NCBI GenBank assembly: GCA_001599935.1
Contig: BCIJ01000022.1
Coordinates: 197,798 to 261,797, forward strand
DNA length: 64,000 nt
DNA from: Holtermannia corniformis
Taxonomy: Eukaryota > Basidiomycota > Tremellomycetes > Holtermanniales
Reading direction: 5' to 3'
Below the pieces are notes generated by a model. The model was not told the origin of the DNA. It did no database searches and saw only the letters and a list, made by a program, of their open reading frames with translations. Of the stretch, positions 52,211-59,622 are shown in pieces (position 1 is the stretch's first letter; every line of letters starts with the position of its first letter). Position numbers and translations under genes: made by a program.

Positions 52211-53788
52211 TCACCAGAACTTCCACGGCACCCACACATCCACGACCTTGTCTCCACCTTCCTCGATCACGTAGTACCACGGGAATTGCGCGGCGGTCAA
52301 GCATGCGTGCTGCGGGACCAGAGCAAGCACCTGACCCAGCTCGAGGCTCGGTGCCGTCAGCTCGTCACCAGCGTAGCGGAGAAGACCGTGTTCTTGCGAG
52401 GTTCGATCAAGCTTCCAACCGCGCGCTGGTCCATCGACAACAGCACCGAAGCCGCCAGAGGGCCCGCTGTCGCGAGACATGCCAAGGCCGCCCACATCGC
52501 ACATGCTGTACCAGGTAAGCTCGCTTCCTGTGCAAAAGCCGTTACTTACGCCTCTTGGCGTGTAGCGTACGTCGAGATGACTCGCGAAAGCACACGGATG
52601 GCGACGTCTTGTTGTCCGATGGCCTTGGTCGACATTTGCTGCAAGTCGCAAGCAGGGTAGCAGCCAGCGTGCCTGCCAGAATCAGCTCTGGGTGATCGTC
52701 AAATCGGTTGTGACGAACAACTCCATAACGCCGTTCAGCTTGCCCGGCACCATGGCTTCTTGCTCGGCCACCGCATGCGCCGCTGGAGTGGACCCCATGG
52801 CCAGAACGAAAGGCGTCGTTGGTTCACGTCCCATGAGCTCGATGCATACTCCTGCGGCGTCGTTGACAGCGGCAAGCTCGCCGGTCAGGTAGCCAGCTGC
52901 CTCGCCGATGCTCTTGGAAGCGTAAGAGGCTGTGACGAGTTAGGTCACATCGGTCTCGATAGGACTGACCTACCACCGTTGTGGCAGTAAAAGCCAAAGA
53001 TATCGATAGACTGTGAAGCCAGTATAACGGTAATCAGCTCACGCATGTCTTGTGACAGAGGCGGTAGGCCGGCGCGACTGGCTAGTGTCAATTGGTTGAC
53101 AAGTTATGAAACCTTTCAACGCACTTGCCACCCGCGTCGCACTTGATAAAGGCAGACCATCGACGCGACTTGCCCTCCGTAGTAACCCATTTATCGACAG
53201 CTGCGACTTGCGCAGTGCTGTCAAGAAGCACACGGAGGACGCCATCGTGTCTGGCCAGCTGATCCGCTGCACTGGCCAACTCTTCGAGCTTGTCAATGGG
53301 AAGGGGAAGGCCGTACAAGATCTAGCAAGTCAGCTCGGCGTCAACGCCGTCGACCATCGCTCACATCCTTAAGAAGCCCATCCTCCACACAGCCAGATTG
53401 CAGAGCACCGAGTAGCTCTGGCATTGTCGAGCATACGATCGAGTCCGATTTGCCGCTCGAAGATTGGAGTTGGTATCTCATCACTTCCTTGGACTGAGCA
53501 CAGTGAGCGCCTGAAGGCTAAGAGTGGGTAGAATCTGACCTTGAGCGTCTTGACATGAGCCCGGAAGCCCATCTGTGTCTTGCTCGCACGCTCGTGCATC
53601 TTGGCACAGTTGCGAGCGACAACCGTACGGTCGACTACGAAGCCTGCAGACCATCAGCTCAGGAAGCTCTGGGAGTGGTGATACGCACAAGGCGTTCGGA
53701 GAGCATCCAGTAAAGTCCCAACGAACGCATCTCGGAGTTTGCCCTCATCAGGACTGTACGCGAAAGGTGTAGCTGTCTGAGCGACCAT
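52211..53788 (-). CDS. DSD1: D-serine dehydratase (Dsd1-like, PLP and Zn)
   Basis: Fold-type III alanine-racemase-like enzyme. The PLP Lys lies in FRAHVKTLK, the barrel continues through KDILYGLPLPIDKLEELASA, FIKCDAGGNRAGLPPLS, DIFGFYCHNG and HAGCYPACDLQQMS, and the C-terminal beta domain carries SQEHG and PQHACLTAA. The HxC zinc motif in the last block is the eukaryotic D-serine dehydratase type; bacterial D-threonine aldolases have HxD there. So conversion of D-serine to pyruvate plus ammonia is preferred over aldolase activity. Introns: 53645-53689, 53494-53539, 53322-53364, 53078-53124, 52930-52973, 52673-52721, 52506-52549. Head to head with RidA. Confidence 0.85.
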
Positions 53789-54091
53789 AATGATGGGTAA
53801 GGTGCACACGTAACAAGGTCACTGCCGAACTTGTGTAGCTCAATCAGCTCATGCCATGTCGCAAGGAGTTTTCGGCATACTCGCAGCGTTGTCCTAGCGG
53901 ACTCGGGTACGACGCGATAGCAAATCCGGGTGGGGGAGAGTGGGGGAGGGTGGGGGAGTTGACGAGAGACGGATAGGATAAGGTGGAGCGGCAGCTCACG
54001 GATCAAGGTATCAGCAGACCAGGACTCTCAGAAATACCACCATCTACATACCACTCCCAGTGCTCTTTCGATTCCAGTCATCGTGATCAAC
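53789..54091. promoter_or_regulatory. Bidirectional promoter DSD1/RidA
   Basis: 303 bp between divergent start codons; contains the G-rich tandem boxes at 53931-53960. Confidence 0.6.
53931..53960 (+). repeat. Three tandem 10-bp TGGGGGAGRG boxes
   Basis: TGGGGGAGAG, TGGGGGAGGG and TGGGGGAGTT at exact 10-bp spacing, one helical turn. The same core recurs in the other promoter of the D-amino-acid block. It also fits a G-quadruplex pattern. Confidence 0.75.
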
Positions 54092-54573
54092 ATGTCCGAC
54101 GAGATCAAGCACTCCTTCGTCACTGGCGTTCCCGACCAGAAGGCGGTTCCGCACATCCTCAGCCCCGCAACCGTGTACAATGGCCTCGTATTCTGCAGTG
54201 GTCAGGTATGTGATTCATTCGGCGTTGGATCACAGCTGACATGTACAGACTCCTATCGATGCCAGCGGCAAGGTCGTTGAGGGTGGCATCAAGGAGCTCA
54301 CGACCCAATGCGTCCGCAACCTCGAGCAAGTCTTGCACCATGCAGGCTCATCCTTGAAAAAGGTCTTGAAGGTCACTGTCTTCTTGGCCGACATGGATGA
54401 CTTTGCGGAGATGAACCAGGCGTATGAGCAGGTTGGTGACAGATAGTGTTTGAGCACAGACGGCTGACGGCGGTGCTTAGCTTTTCGGCAGCCCCAAGCC
54501 TGCCCGATCCTGTATACAGGTCACCAACCCTGGCCGTGTCAGGGTCGAGATTGAGCTCGTTGCCACTGTATAA
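54092..54573 (+). CDS. MMF1: RidA/YjgF/UK114 enamine deaminase
   Basis: Hydrolyses reactive enamine/imine intermediates such as 2-aminoacrylate, made by PLP-dependent serine/threonine dehydratases. Full-length (about 130 aa): YNGLVFCSGQTPIDASGKVV, GGIKELTTQCVRNLEQVLHHAG, KVTVFLADMDDFAEMNQAYE, and the conserved Arg in KPARSCIQV. Introns 54206-54248 and 54432-54480. It lacks an obvious presequence, so it may be cytosolic. Its divergent pairing with a D-serine dehydratase matches its chemistry. Confidence 0.93.
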
Positions 54574-54785
54574 TAGTCAATCTTTGCATGCACTTGTATG
54601 GTCGTTGAACGAGAGGTGTCGTGTGCGGCCGTGCGTCGTTAGCTCGAGGCACTTGCCATCAGCATATCATTATTCTCTTGAGCCTCAGCAAGACGAAAGT
54701 GCAGCTCCAGGGTGCAGAAAACAGCCTGTTAAAAGTGACGTATGCACCATCCGCAAGAAGTACAAGCTGCATGATCACTGTACAA

Positions 54786-56666
54786 TCACTTCTCACCCAA
54801 GACAGTCACCCGCCCATCCGTACGCCGCCTCAACGTTCTCCCACCTCGAGCTCCAGTCGGTCGTCCTTGGTCGACCGCAATCACTCCATTCACCAAGACA
54901 AACTCAATCCCACGACTCTGCTGCACTGGCTTTTCAAACGTCGCCATGTCCTTGATGGTAGCCGGGTTCCACAGGACGAGATCGGCGTATGAACCCTCCC
55001 GGACGACACCTCGCAATGGATAGATACCCATCCGCTTTGCTGGACGAGTCGTGAGGTGAGCTACCATCGATGGCAAAGCGATGAGCCCCAGGTCTCGAGA
55101 GTAGTGCCCCAAGAAGCGAGGGAAGGTACCCCAAGCTCGAGGGTGACACCGTGCTCCGTGTAGAATACTGTCAAGTCGTCAGCCCCAAATCTGCCTGCGC
55201 TCTGAAGCATACGCATCACTCCCACCGCAGTGCGTCTCGTGCTGCATGATGCACCGTACGTTGGCTTCGTCCCCGACATGCATGATAATGCTGGTCCGCA
55301 GGCTATCCTGCACCAAGACGTCGAGGAAGACCTCTCCTGGCTCTTTCCCTTGAGTCTCGGCGATTTGAGCCAAGGTCTTGCCCGAATATGACGCCAAAGC
55401 CGGGTTGGCCACGCCCGACAGCTCGATGGTTGTCCAGTCGATTGGCAAGCCATGACCGCCATCGCAACCCTTTTCGACGGCGGCTCGCAGTTCTTGAGCC
55501 GACTTCAGATCTTTGAGCCGTTCCAATGTCGCGGCCGGGCCACCTTCGTGTGCGGAAGAGGGCAGCATGGCCGCCAGCGTCGTCGATCCCGGCAGATACG
55601 GGTACGTGTCCAGGCTAACATCAACGCCGTCTCGTCGGGCCTGGTCGACAAGGTCAAGCATGTCCTGGCCTTTGCCGCGGTTCTCCGCATAGTTCATCGT
55701 GGCATGCGTCAAGTGTACCGCAACGCCAGTATCCCGACCGAGCTGGAGCATCTCCTCGTATGCTTTCAATGCGTTCTTGCCATACGAACGGTGATGAGGC
55801 GCATAGAACGAGCCCGGAAAGGTCGCAAGTTCCTCGCAAAGCGATGCGAGCTCCGCGGTGGAAGCGTACATGCCCGGCGTATAGGTCAGGCCGGACGACA
55901 TGCCGATAGCGCCTTCGGCCATGGCTGCGCGCAAAAGAGCTCGTTGATCGGCAATCTCAGCTGGTGTAGCTGGTGTATCGTTTGGACCGCATGCAAGCAA
56001 GCGGAGGTTCCCCTGCGTAGTCGATCAGCGCTGGCGCCCGATTCGCGACCAGAAAAACGGGGCGTACCTGTGGGCAGAGCGTTGCGACGTTGGTCGCAGT
56101 TTTATTGCGTTCCAAGCAGTCAAGGTAATCCTTGGTTGATTGCCATTCGAACATGCCGACGCCCGCATGCAAGGTACTGCAATCTTCGTCGCTCGGGTTC
56201 CCGTTCCAGCCCTCGATCTGCACCCGGATGTGGTCGAGCTCGTGCTTGTTGCGGATCGGGCTGTAGGAAATGCCTAGCTTTGGGTCAGCTATCAGACTTC
56301 ACCATCTCACACAGGACTCGCCGTCTTGACCGACAATCTCGGTGGTAACGCCTTGTGTGATCTTTGGGGCATGCTCTGGGTGAGTAAGGAGGTACAGGTC
56401 CGAGTGCGCGTGCTGGTAATGCTCAGCTGGGCTCCGCTCAAGTTTGCGAGGCCTACCATGTCGATGAAGCCAGGGCTCAAGACTAGCCCGTTCCCGTCTA
56501 TACGTCTTGCGTCACCCTTGTACGTCAAGCTCAAGCCGTTGCCGATAGCAGCAATCCTGCCATCAGACACAAGGACATCTGCAACGTAGGGCACAGCCTT
56601 CTCCTCGCCATCGATGATTGTCGGCGAGAGGAACAGGATGTCACGCAGCGAAGGTTGGATGGTCAT
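54786..56666 (-). CDS. N-acyl-D-amino-acid deacylase (D-aminoacylase)
   Basis: Amidohydrolase-superfamily enzyme cleaving N-acyl groups from D-amino acids. N-terminal beta part (DVLVSDGRIAAIGNGL), metal-binding HAHSD right after the first splice, GAIGMSSGLTYTPGMYAST, HHRSYG, VHLTHATMNYAENRGKG, IIMHVGDEANVRCIMQHETH, CGGSDA, HPRAWGTFPRFLGHYSRD, and the C-terminal beta strands LRGVVREGSYADLVLW. Introns: 56413-56456, 56278-56310 (borders ambiguous), 56013-56067, 55168-55212. An upstream in-frame extension begins with TTG only, so the ATG at 56666 is used. No signal peptide seen; an intracellular enzyme. Confidence 0.9.
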
Positions 56667-57179
56667 GTTGAACTTCGGCTGCTTGCGTCGATACAGTAAA
56701 CGGCTAGCTGGAGCTGGAGCTGGGATGCGGAGGTGTCCACCGCGATAGCTCGGCAACTCGGCTGCAACGGATGCCACGGACAAGATAGCAGTCGGTCGTA
56801 CACGGCAGCTCTTGTCCGATGTTACCGTGAAGTACCGCGCGTTGCCTTGATGCGCCGGACGTCCTCCCCCACCTGTATAGTCATCCTAGCCAGCTGATCA
56901 CCTTGCACCAGCCAAAACAAGCGTTCGCTATCGGAGAGTGGGGGAAGCACCCCAGGGTGGGGGCGGGATAGAGCCGGGGCACCCGCTCGTTCCCTAATCA
57001 GCTGCTCGGAACCTCCCCCATCTCCCCCACCCGACTGATTGCTGTTTGGCACTGTCGCCGCTGTCAGACTCGAGTTGTAATCATGCGCTCACACGACCGC
57101 GCTAATATATAAGTGGACGGGATACGAAGCCTAGAGGTACCGACCACTCGAAAGATTGACTCGTGCCTGAATTAGCAAG
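56667..57179. promoter_or_regulatory. Bidirectional promoter D-aminoacylase/permease
   Basis: 513 bp between divergent starts. It contains five G-rich boxes of the type found at 53931, in both orientations, and AT-rich AATATATAAG near 57103-57112 upstream of the permease. Confidence 0.6.
56864..57029. repeat. Scattered GTGGGGGA boxes (five copies)
   Basis: CTCCCCCA at 56864-56871, TGGGGGAA at 56939-56946, TGGGGG at 56958-56963, CTCCCCCA-type copies at 57013-57020 and 57022-57029. The core is the same as the tandem boxes between DSD1 and RidA. Confidence 0.65.
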
Positions 57180-59622
57180 ATGTCGTCTATCGAAGAACGC
57201 TTCAGCGACGAGAAGAAGGCTGTTGCTGCTGTCTCGGTCTTTCCAGGAGCCGACGCCTTACCCGACGAGCTGCGCCACGATGACATTGTCATTGACCGTG
57301 CTGAAGAGAAGCGTAGGTTATGACTAATCGTTCTTGGACGATACGCTGACAACTTGCTAGGATTGTTGCGCAAAATCGACTTTACCATCCTGGTAGGAGC
57401 AGCGGAAGTGTCAAGACTGCAGTTGCTTATGTTCTCACCAGCCCGTGCTTGCCATCATGTACCTTTTCAACGGTCTTGACAAGTACGTGCGAGTTATGCG
57501 AGCTATGCACGCGCGCATGTTGACTTACTATGTGCAGGGGCAATATTGGTAACGCAAAGACTGACCACATGGATAAGGACATTGGCCTTGTTGGTAATCA
57601 ATGTAAAGTACTCCCTAGTAAAGTACTCCCGACTGACTTGGTCAACCAGACTATCTGACGGTCATGTGTTTTTACATCCCGCTGTGTCTTGCGGGCACCC
57701 CCATCGCCATGGTACGCACAGTTTCAGAGCGAAGTCGTTTCTGGCTCACGATCTCATTAGTTCTGCAAACGATACTCGGCCGCCTTCGTGTTGCCTCTCA
57801 TGATGATCGGCTTCGGCACGTGCTCCCTGCTCTGCGCTGCTGTCACGAACTTTGGAGGTGACGTTGTCACCGTACGTGTTTGACACAGGGCTCATAGGAC
57901 ACAGGACTCTTCGCTCTGCGTTTCCTTCTCGGTATATTTGAAAGCGCCATGTTCGTATCGCTCGAAGAGATATGTTGACACATCACTTACATCCGTCTCT
58001 AGGTTGCCCGGTGTCGTGTACTACCTTTCAACCTGGTAGGTGACGGTAGGAAACCATTTCTCTTCATTTACTGACTTGCTCCTAGGTACACTCGAGGAGA
58101 GCTGGCGGGACGCATTGGCATCTTCTACAGCATGTCATCCATCGCGAATGCTTTCTCCGGCTTGCTTGCCTTTGGCGTAAGTCCATCATTCATTTCGTCT
58201 TTGGCGGCGACTGACCGAATATTTGCAGGTCTTCCAAATCGAATCCAAGTAGGCAACATCTACACCAACCATATGCCTCGTACTGATCGCCCGTCCGCAG
58301 ACTTCACGGATGGCAATACCTTTTCCTCGTGGAGTGGGTCACCTACTGTTCCGCGATTCTGCGTGCTGACGCTGGCTCAGGGGAGGTGCAACCGTGACAT
58401 TTGCCGCCTTTGCCTTTTTCGTATGTATCATGCGCATCAAGAGCTTCTTTCGGCTGACACGTACAGTATCTACCTCGCTCACCTGCCCGCGCCAAATTCC
58501 TCACCCAAGAGCAAAAGGACATGTGCCGTGTTCGCACTCTTAGAGATGGGTCGGTCGTTGTTGACGAGAAGGTGCGGTGTTACGGGCACGACTCCCCGAT
58601 ATAGCGTTGACGAGCCGATCAGCTGGTCCTTCGTGATGCGTTCATGCCGTTTGTCGAGGACTGGCGCTACATCATCTGGGCTCTCCTTGCTCTTGGTCTC
58701 GGTGCGTAGAGATCGGTCGACCTCGTGAGCCACGCTGACGTGCTTGCAGGCGTTCCTCTTGCGTCCGTCGGTGTGCGTTCAGCTGACCAATCCCGTCTCA
58801 TTCGTCACTAACTGCCCTTTAGTCCTTCTTGCCACAGATTGTTGCGCGCCTTGGTCTGTCCACTGTCAAGACCAACCTGTACACCGTTGCTCCCAACATC
58901 GTCGGTGCCATCTTTGTGATCATCTTCACTCAAAGCTCCGATTACTTCCGCGAGCGCTCGATCCACGTTGCCATCCCTCTATTCATCACCATGGTCGGCT
59001 TTATCATCCTGGGTGTCATCGACGTGTTGCACAACAAGGGTGTGGCGTACTTGTGAGTCCAGCCGCGCTAGCATGAAGCCATCCTCTAACATTGATGCAG
59101 TGCTTGCTTCCTTCTGTGCATCGGTTCAACTGCACCTTCAGTCTTGTTGTCTACTTGGTACTCCAACTCGCAAGTGGGCGAAAGCAAGCGTGCCGCTCTT
59201 GCTGCGGGTAGGCAGAGCGCGGTCAAGTGACGTAGCCTGCACTGACCCTCATCAGTCATGGTCGCCATCGCCAACAGCTCTGGCCTCATCTCTACCAACA
59301 TCTTCCGTGCTCAAGATGAGCCCAAGGTACGCAGCTACCACGAGCTTGTCAATATGTTGCTGACGAGTTTAGTACATCCCGGCGCTTGCTACGTCTGCGG
59401 CAATCGGTGGTGCCACTTGCGTTGGTGCCGTGTCCTGGGGTCTTTACATGCGCGCCGTCAACTGGAAGCGCAACCGTGAGCAAGGCCTTCCACGCGGTTA
59501 CGGCTCCAAGGATGTCCCAACCGAGCTTCTTGGGAAGGGCCCCAAGGACTCTGGTGAGTGTGCTGTGAATGATAGCAGGACGGCAGCTAATATCACCTGC
59601 AGCGTACCGCTACTTCTACTAG
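57180..59622 (+). CDS. MFS anion/allantoate-family permease
   Basis: Dal5-like (anion:cation symporter) transporter with 12 expected membrane helices. LRKIDFTILPVLAIMYLFNG, NIGNAKTD, FYIPLCLAGTPIAM, FALRFLLGIFESAMLPGVVY, YLSTWYTRGELAGRIG, FLVEGG, FLTQEQKDMC, IAIANSSGLISTNIFRAQDE-like VAIANSSGLISTNIFR and an end in YRYFY. Nineteen introns of 38-55 bp were placed: starts at 57313, 57393, 57483, 57603, 57712, 57858, 57951, 58036, 58177, 58249, 58334, 58421, 58572, 58702, 58773, 59053, 59218, 59327, 59554. Substrates in this family are small carboxylates, amides and dipeptides; N-acyl-D-amino acids are inferred from its divergent partner. Confidence 0.88.

Follow-up and report, generated by a model that had tools for sequence, protein, structure and literature searches.

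What do four adjacent genes of the basidiomycete Holtermannia corniformis have to do with one another, and which substrate would they serve together? The genes encode a D-serine dehydratase (DSD), a RidA family protein, an N-acyl-D-amino-acid deacylase and a permease of the major facilitator superfamily (MFS), and lie at 52211..59622 in the window, the 64 kb of contig 22 (BCIJ01000022.1) that were analysed from a genome of 20.2 Mb in 55 contigs. We consider it likely that they form a catabolic gene cluster for the use of D-amino acids, the substrates probably being N-acyl-D-amino acids or anions of a similar kind. The genes follow one another in the order given, as two divergent pairs—DSD with RidA, and the deacylase with the permease—with RidA and the deacylase convergent and with the stop codons of DSD and the permease as the limits of the block. 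A preliminary description of the window had proposed this four-gene block with the same order, strands and two divergent pairs, which is borne out by reading frames that are all intact when spliced and by matches to Pfam. The family assignments stand as well, each above its cut-off: PF14031 and PF01168 (87.9 and 35.4 bits) for DSD, PF01042 (110.6 bits against a cut-off of 27.3) for RidA, PF07969 (104.3 bits) for the deacylase and PF07690 (118.1 bits) for the permease. No NCBIfam model reached its cut-off for any of the four proteins, RidA scoring 106.1 bits with TIGR00004, 0.15 below the cut-off of 106.25, and the permease 157.7 bits with TIGR00893, below the cut-off of 395. Six-frame searches of the genome found PF14031 at a single place, this locus, and the deacylase in this one copy, so that the adjacency of these two genes is not a by-product of large families.

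The features of the individual proteins fit these assignments to different degrees. By sequence, the solved structure closest to DSD is that of the chicken D-serine dehydratase (3anu, 4.5e-49), and the protein keeps the HxC motif (H389, C391) and a lysine (K65), which we take to be the zinc ligands and the lysine that binds pyridoxal phosphate (PLP), respectively. DSD thus resembles yeast Dsd1 and the chicken enzyme in belonging to the fold-type III family with HxC motif and PLP lysine, and differs from both in being clustered with a deacylase and a permease. Compared with 120 fungal relatives, it departs at 11 positions from a residue shared by 95% or more of them, most other conserved residues being kept. 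The closest solved structures to the deacylase are a D-aminoacylase (1m7j, 2.2e-77) and an N-acyl-D-glutamate deacylase (3gip, 6.2e-63). When aligned with 1m7j, the deacylase has H71, H73, H242, H272 and D435, presumably metal ligands as in that enzyme, each of them also present in 99% or more of 120 relatives. The GNCG sequence of the Alcaligenes D-aminoacylase, whose Cys we assume to be a metal ligand, is replaced by GQDG with D100; this Asp is common to at least 99% of the 120 relatives, fungal and bacterial, and GQDG is a trait of the subgroup to which the deacylase belongs. The Pfam, NCBIfam, solved-structure and protein searches of the deacylase were run with an earlier model of 565 residues, the genome copy search, residue comparison and tree with the corrected model of 562. 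RidA contains the Arg of the PARS motif, presumably catalytic for a predicted imine or enamine hydrolysis. Its family has four other matches in the genome, on other contigs, three of which align with the cluster RidA at 40–51% over 48–63 residues. The permease has many more distant relatives elsewhere in the genome, and among the best 120 entries of its protein search the closest named relatives are nicotinic acid (TNA1-type) transporters, the others being unnamed MFS proteins. The earlier label "Dal5-like" is therefore too specific, these transporters being other members of the wider family, and the substrate of the permease is the least certain step of the predicted pathway.

As judged from the four families, the permease would import the substrate and the amidohydrolase would strip its acyl group to yield a free D-amino acid. 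DSD, as a zinc- and PLP-dependent enzyme, would then remove water from D-serine, or from a related beta-hydroxy D-amino acid, to give an enamine, for instance 2-aminoacrylate, which RidA would hydrolyse to a keto acid and ammonia, protecting PLP enzymes. According to PMC9127364, 2-aminoacrylate damages PLP enzymes when RidA is missing, including one of yeast.

The two divergent promoters share a motif. The sequence GTGGGGGA occurs six times in the window, each time in one of these two promoters and three times in each, against a mean expectation of 1.85; six copies anywhere were reached in one of 100 shuffles. The copies between DSD and RidA lie at 53930, 53940 and 53950, with a period of 10 bp, and those between the deacylase and the permease at 56865 (minus strand), 56938 (plus strand) and 57023 (minus strand), with a further GTGGGGG at 56957. 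Seven of the eight occurrences of GTGGGGG in the window fall inside the two promoters. Among 1213 sliding pairs of intervals with the same lengths and spacing, at least three copies of GTGGGGG on both sides were found here only, at five overlapping positions. Both promoters are thus probably co-regulated through GTGGGG(GA).

Linkage between the same genes recurs in other basidiomycetes. Gene order in the relatives was derived from locus tags and from the sizes of the longest contigs in the best 120 entries of each protein search, where an entry is a cluster at 90% identity and equal size of the longest contig was read as the same contig, a reading that is weak for megabase contigs. Schizophyllum commune (permease) and Cutaneotrichosporon oleaginosum (deacylase), with entries from several or different assemblies, were left out of the counts. 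DSD and the deacylase are adjacent or on the same contig in seven of eight comparable species. Their tags are one or two apart in Kwoniella dendrophila (L201_003872/003873), K. shivajii (IL334_005087/005086), Cryptococcus floricola (B9479_007291/007290) and Cryptococcus sp. DSM 104548 (IAR50_007547/007545), and contig size unites them in Naematelia encephala (64,409), Meredithblackwellia eburnea (441,921) and Kockovaella imperatae (672,263); only in Pseudohyphozyma bogoriensis are they on different contigs. DSD and the permease are adjacent or on the same contig in 17 of 27 comparable species, with tags one to three apart in six (Marasmius tenuissimus, Paramarasmius palmivorus, Hericium alpestre, Amanita thiersii, Pleurotus djamor and Leucocoprinus leucothites) and equal contig sizes in 11 (Meredithblackwellia, Crepidotus, Crucibulum, Gloeophyllum, Crassisporium, Marasmius fiardii, Pholiota conissans, Heliocybe, Mycena floridula, Collybia nuda and Moniliophthora). 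In several species one gene lies between DSD and its linked partner. Dispersal of the genes in all relatives, which would have spoken against the grouping in the preliminary description, is thus not what was found for either pair. The linkage of DSD with the deacylase is seen in Tremellomycetes and Microbotryomycetes and that with the permease mainly in Agaricomycetes, and the window has both, as does Meredithblackwellia if judged by contig. In a permease tree of 119 entries, the labels linked (18, the window included) and unlinked (10) require four changes, whereas shuffled labels need 8.3 on average and four or fewer in one of 500 shuffles. The membership of RidA in the cluster is read from the H. 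corniformis genome alone.

Several observations weigh against a co-regulated cluster for D-amino acids. DSD and the permease are unlinked in ten of the 27 comparable species, namely C. floricola, Cryptococcus sp. DSM 104549 (on the same contig, 1151 tags apart), Lyophyllum atratum, Auricularia subglabra, Auriculariales sp. MPI-PUGE-AT-0066, Termitomyces sp. T112, Mycena vitilis, M. alexandri, M. haematopus and M. metata. The deacylase and the permease are linked only in Meredithblackwellia, by equal contig size, among four comparable species; they are 317 tags apart in Kwoniella newhampshirensis and on different contigs in C. floricola and Vanrija albida. In the protein, residue L67 of DSD, two positions after the PLP lysine, replaces a His found in 120 of 120 fungal relatives. 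For free D-amino acids beyond D-serine and D-threonine, another enzyme from outside the cluster would be needed, for example an oxidase; the D-amino acid oxidase family gave 15 matches. As for the motif, the genome holds 371 copies of GTGGGGGA, single sites being located for the first 100 of these, against 421 of its reversed control, so that the word itself is not enriched and it is the clustering that stands out. GGGTGGGGGAG occurs 13 times against 14 for its control, three of the 13 lying in these promoters. The triplet between DSD and RidA may stem from a single tandem duplication event. In favour of the motif, opposed GTGGGGGA pairs 60–90 nt apart occur in the genome, in either order, only in the promoter between the deacylase and the permease, with none in the control, a result that shows rarity and is no blind test, as the spacing was chosen after inspecting that promoter. 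Opposed pairs of the form GTGGGGGA..TCCCCCAC at 0–30 nt are absent genome-wide, with two in the control. Same-strand GTGGGGGA pairs with 0–30 nt between them gave four matches at three places (control: two), which are the promoter of DSD and RidA, a proline-rich coding stretch on contig 3 and a site upstream of a C2H2 zinc-finger gene. The pair on contig 3 (C3:606221) was discounted as coding, since it lies in the proline-rich stretch of a frame that appears WASP-like.

A true pathway cluster might also serve a different substrate, with DSD acting chiefly on another beta-hydroxy D-amino acid, such as D-threo-3-hydroxyaspartate or D-threonine, and the permease importing a nicotinate-like or other organic anion. 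L67 is joined here by V72 and F419, where 120 of 120 and 118 of 119 relatives, respectively, have Gly, and by the naming of the closest permease relatives as nicotinic acid transporters. The D-threo-3-hydroxyaspartate dehydratase 3wqc carries a Ser where L67 aligns, indicating that His is not essential there in the wider family. The codon of L67 (exon 2, 53540..53643) and those of the other odd residues are plain in the DNA, an assembly error being possible. Since this unusual residue lies near the PLP lysine, D-serine may not be the sole substrate of DSD. Nevertheless, 3wqc matches DSD at 3e-29, far less well than the chicken D-serine dehydratase, and the neighbouring deacylase points to N-acyl-D-amino acids, which makes the change of substrate rather unlikely. 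Two DSD analyses stand apart from this comparison: a tree calculated with fasttree joins two long branches, the window and Pseudohyphozyma, and was not relied on, and a scan of viral contigs with the fungal DSD alignment found no relative. In Kwoniella sp. DSM 27419 there are two distinct DSD proteins with tags 34 apart (IAU60_003755 and IAU60_003789), one of which reads HSC at the HxC motif.

That the two divergent pairs are independent of each other, DSD and RidA serving housekeeping detoxification and the deacylase and permease another nutrient without shared regulation, would agree with the ten species in which DSD and the permease lie apart, and divergent pairs are common in compact fungal genomes. 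One motif clusters in both promoters, however, and DSD is repeatedly found next to, or on one contig with, the deacylase or the permease, both of them members of the other pair; we therefore hold independent pairs to be quite improbable. Still further down the scale stands a chance neighbourhood with no functional meaning, which we can hardly credit: it has in its favour only that unrelated genes can, in general, come to be neighbours, whereas linkage recurs in fungi as distant as Tremellomycetes, Microbotryomycetes and Agaricomycetes, DSD and the deacylase are single-copy, and the promoter motif is common to both pairs. The reading as a D-amino-acid cluster, and with it the pathway of the preliminary description, fits the four families, the shared promoter motif and the linkage of DSD to the deacylase and to the permease that recurs in other fungi, while the Dal5 label and the exact substrate of DSD have to be given up or left wider. 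On this evidence, all of it from sequence, the locus is probably a real, partly conserved and co-regulated fungal catabolic cluster for which that pathway is the best label, the substrates of DSD and the permease being inferred.

The third place of a same-strand motif pair offers a candidate regulator. The C2H2 zinc-finger gene lies on the same contig, about 55 kb beyond the permease, with its start codon at 312742 (L019:3742 onwards) and two copies of GTGGGGGA 206–220 nt upstream of it; its first intron is of the GC-AG type (GCAAGT). The protein has two PF00096 fingers with the helices RKDHLKR and RLDLLQR, and 2adr is among its matches in the PDB (5.1e-08), many animal zinc-finger proteins scoring higher. 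Apart from the two exons of this gene, the genome has six weaker matches, the best at 8.4e-5. The contact residues are presumably similar to those of yeast ADR1, which we understand to bind TTGGRG, and under the recognition code as we take it to apply, the fingers would favour GNGGGG, compatible with GTGGGG. We hypothesise that this protein regulates the cluster; GTGGGG(GA) would then co-regulate both promoters, perhaps through a C2H2 protein with the motif twice upstream of its own gene.

The preliminary description had stated that clusters of this type are known in bacteria, and for Actinobacteria this is correct. A scan of bacterial genomes with the deacylase alignment gave at least 509 confirmed matches, of which the best 80 loci (L027 to L106) were kept, all of them actinobacterial by their titles, such as Psychromicrobium (L027) and Saccharopolyspora (L072). 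A RidA relative is present in 77 of the 80 and a DSD-type relative also in 77, the queries for the latter being the PF14031 proteins of L027 and L072, themselves among the 80 and the only two in which Pfam confirmed that domain; 75 loci have both. In 64, the DSD-type gene lies at most about 1.2 kb upstream of the deacylase on the same strand. The same loci, by our own reading of the names, contain an IclR-type regulator (70), a sugar-kinase-like gene (65) and a GntP-type permease (54). The actinobacterial loci thus resemble the window in keeping a deacylase, a PF14031 enzyme and RidA close together, with deacylases about 50% identical to the fungal one, and differ from it in often having an IclR regulator, a sugar-kinase-like gene and a GntP-type permease in place of the MFS permease. 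At 1e-4, none of the 80 loci has a match to the fungal DSD and one has a match to the fungal permease, and actinobacterial RidA is at best 45% identical to the cluster RidA over 95 residues. The parts list is, on these comparisons, common to the fungus and Actinobacteria, and only the deacylases are close kin. According to PMC6965332, one of two DSD1-type genes in a Paenarthrobacter strain increases 8.8-fold on D-serine, and the enzyme it encodes was assayed.

The deacylase tree comprises 66 sequences, the window, 29 chosen fungi and 36 of the 80 bacterial loci, and separates fungi from Actinobacteria with a support of 100. The window joins two Microbotryomycetes (support 92), and 12 ascomycetes, many from insect-associated Hypocreales, fall among Tremellomycetes with supports of 80 to 99 along the grade, a placement that may reflect transfer between fungi. 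The protein search (best 120 of 6708) gave named fungi first, with named Actinobacteria at 53–57% identity immediately after them. Transfer of the deacylase from Actinobacteria to fungi is the simplest reading; in this unrooted tree, a single branch divides fungi from Actinobacteria and there is no outgroup, so that it does not decide the direction. A more ambitious account would see in the locus an old, repeatedly rearranged basidiomycete D-amino-acid regulon, in which native DSD, permease and RidA together with a deacylase from Actinobacteria rebuild the actinobacterial parts list, all controlled by a dedicated ADR1-like C2H2 factor that recognises GTGGGG(GA) and also regulates its own gene. 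Taken as a whole, we regard this account as tentative and somewhat doubtful.

The gene models are summarised in Table 1. The four genes have 32 introns of 43–55 nt each, 31 of them GT-AG and one, the second intron of the deacylase (56274..56321), GC-AG. Reading this intron as GT-AG was rejected: it adds residues (GQDGESCIS), whereas seven of eight relatives have GQDGIS and one GQDGLS, and the GC-AG reading yields GQDGIS. This intron is a likely source of wrong automatic gene models. The flanking genes appear unrelated to the block. Beyond DSD, and convergent with it, lies a gene for a DUF4385 protein; beyond the permease lie one stretch without a Pfam match and another with a sub-threshold match to the endonuclease/phosphatase family.

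Table 1. Genes and divergent promoters of the block; positions are those of the window, and promoter lengths run from start codon to start codon.
Feature	Position	Strand	Description
D-serine dehydratase (DSD)	53788..52211	-	420 amino acids, 8 exons, 7 GT-AG introns
Divergent promoter 1 (DSD / RidA)	53789..54091	.	303 bp, three GTGGGGGA
RidA family protein	54092..54573	+	129 amino acids, 3 exons; PF01042
N-acyl-D-amino-acid deacylase (amidohydrolase family 3)	56666..54786	-	562 amino acids, 5 exons; PF07969
Divergent promoter 2 (deacylase / permease)	56667..57179	.	513 bp, three GTGGGGGA and a further GTGGGGG
MFS permease	57180..59622	+	502 amino acids, 20 exons; PF07690

Gene clusters of this general kind are known in fungi. 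The yeast allantoin (DAL) cluster has the same layout of a permease with successive enzymes, for another substrate and with other gene families. The fungal nitrate assimilation cluster (PMC2040219) likewise places a permease and successive enzymes for one nitrogen source side by side, and differs from the block described here in substrate and gene families; co-regulation in H. corniformis is read from the promoter motif only. A literature search, judged by titles and the openings of abstracts, found no description of a fungal cluster of these genes, in agreement with the preliminary description, which knew of no fungal pairing of Dsd1 with RidA; the cluster is thus new as far as the literature was searched. 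Saccharomyces has DSD1, yet is said not to use D-serine as a nitrogen source (PMC6965332). Cryptococcus uses D-amino acids by way of three D-amino acid oxidases (PMC4489021), a route that shares with the cluster the use of D-amino acids as a nitrogen source in a basidiomycete; the text of that paper makes no mention of an aminoacylase or a dehydratase.

If the reading as a D-amino-acid cluster is true, fungi would own a clustered route for D-amino acids besides the well-studied oxidases, with built-in removal of a toxic enamine, and fungal Dsd1-type enzymes would gain a nutritional role. It would also point to a way in which basidiomycetes reuse D-amino-acid compounds that come from bacteria, and fungi and Actinobacteria would have one gene set in common, of which one member may have been transferred. 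The idea can be tested directly through the shared motif and the candidate regulator.

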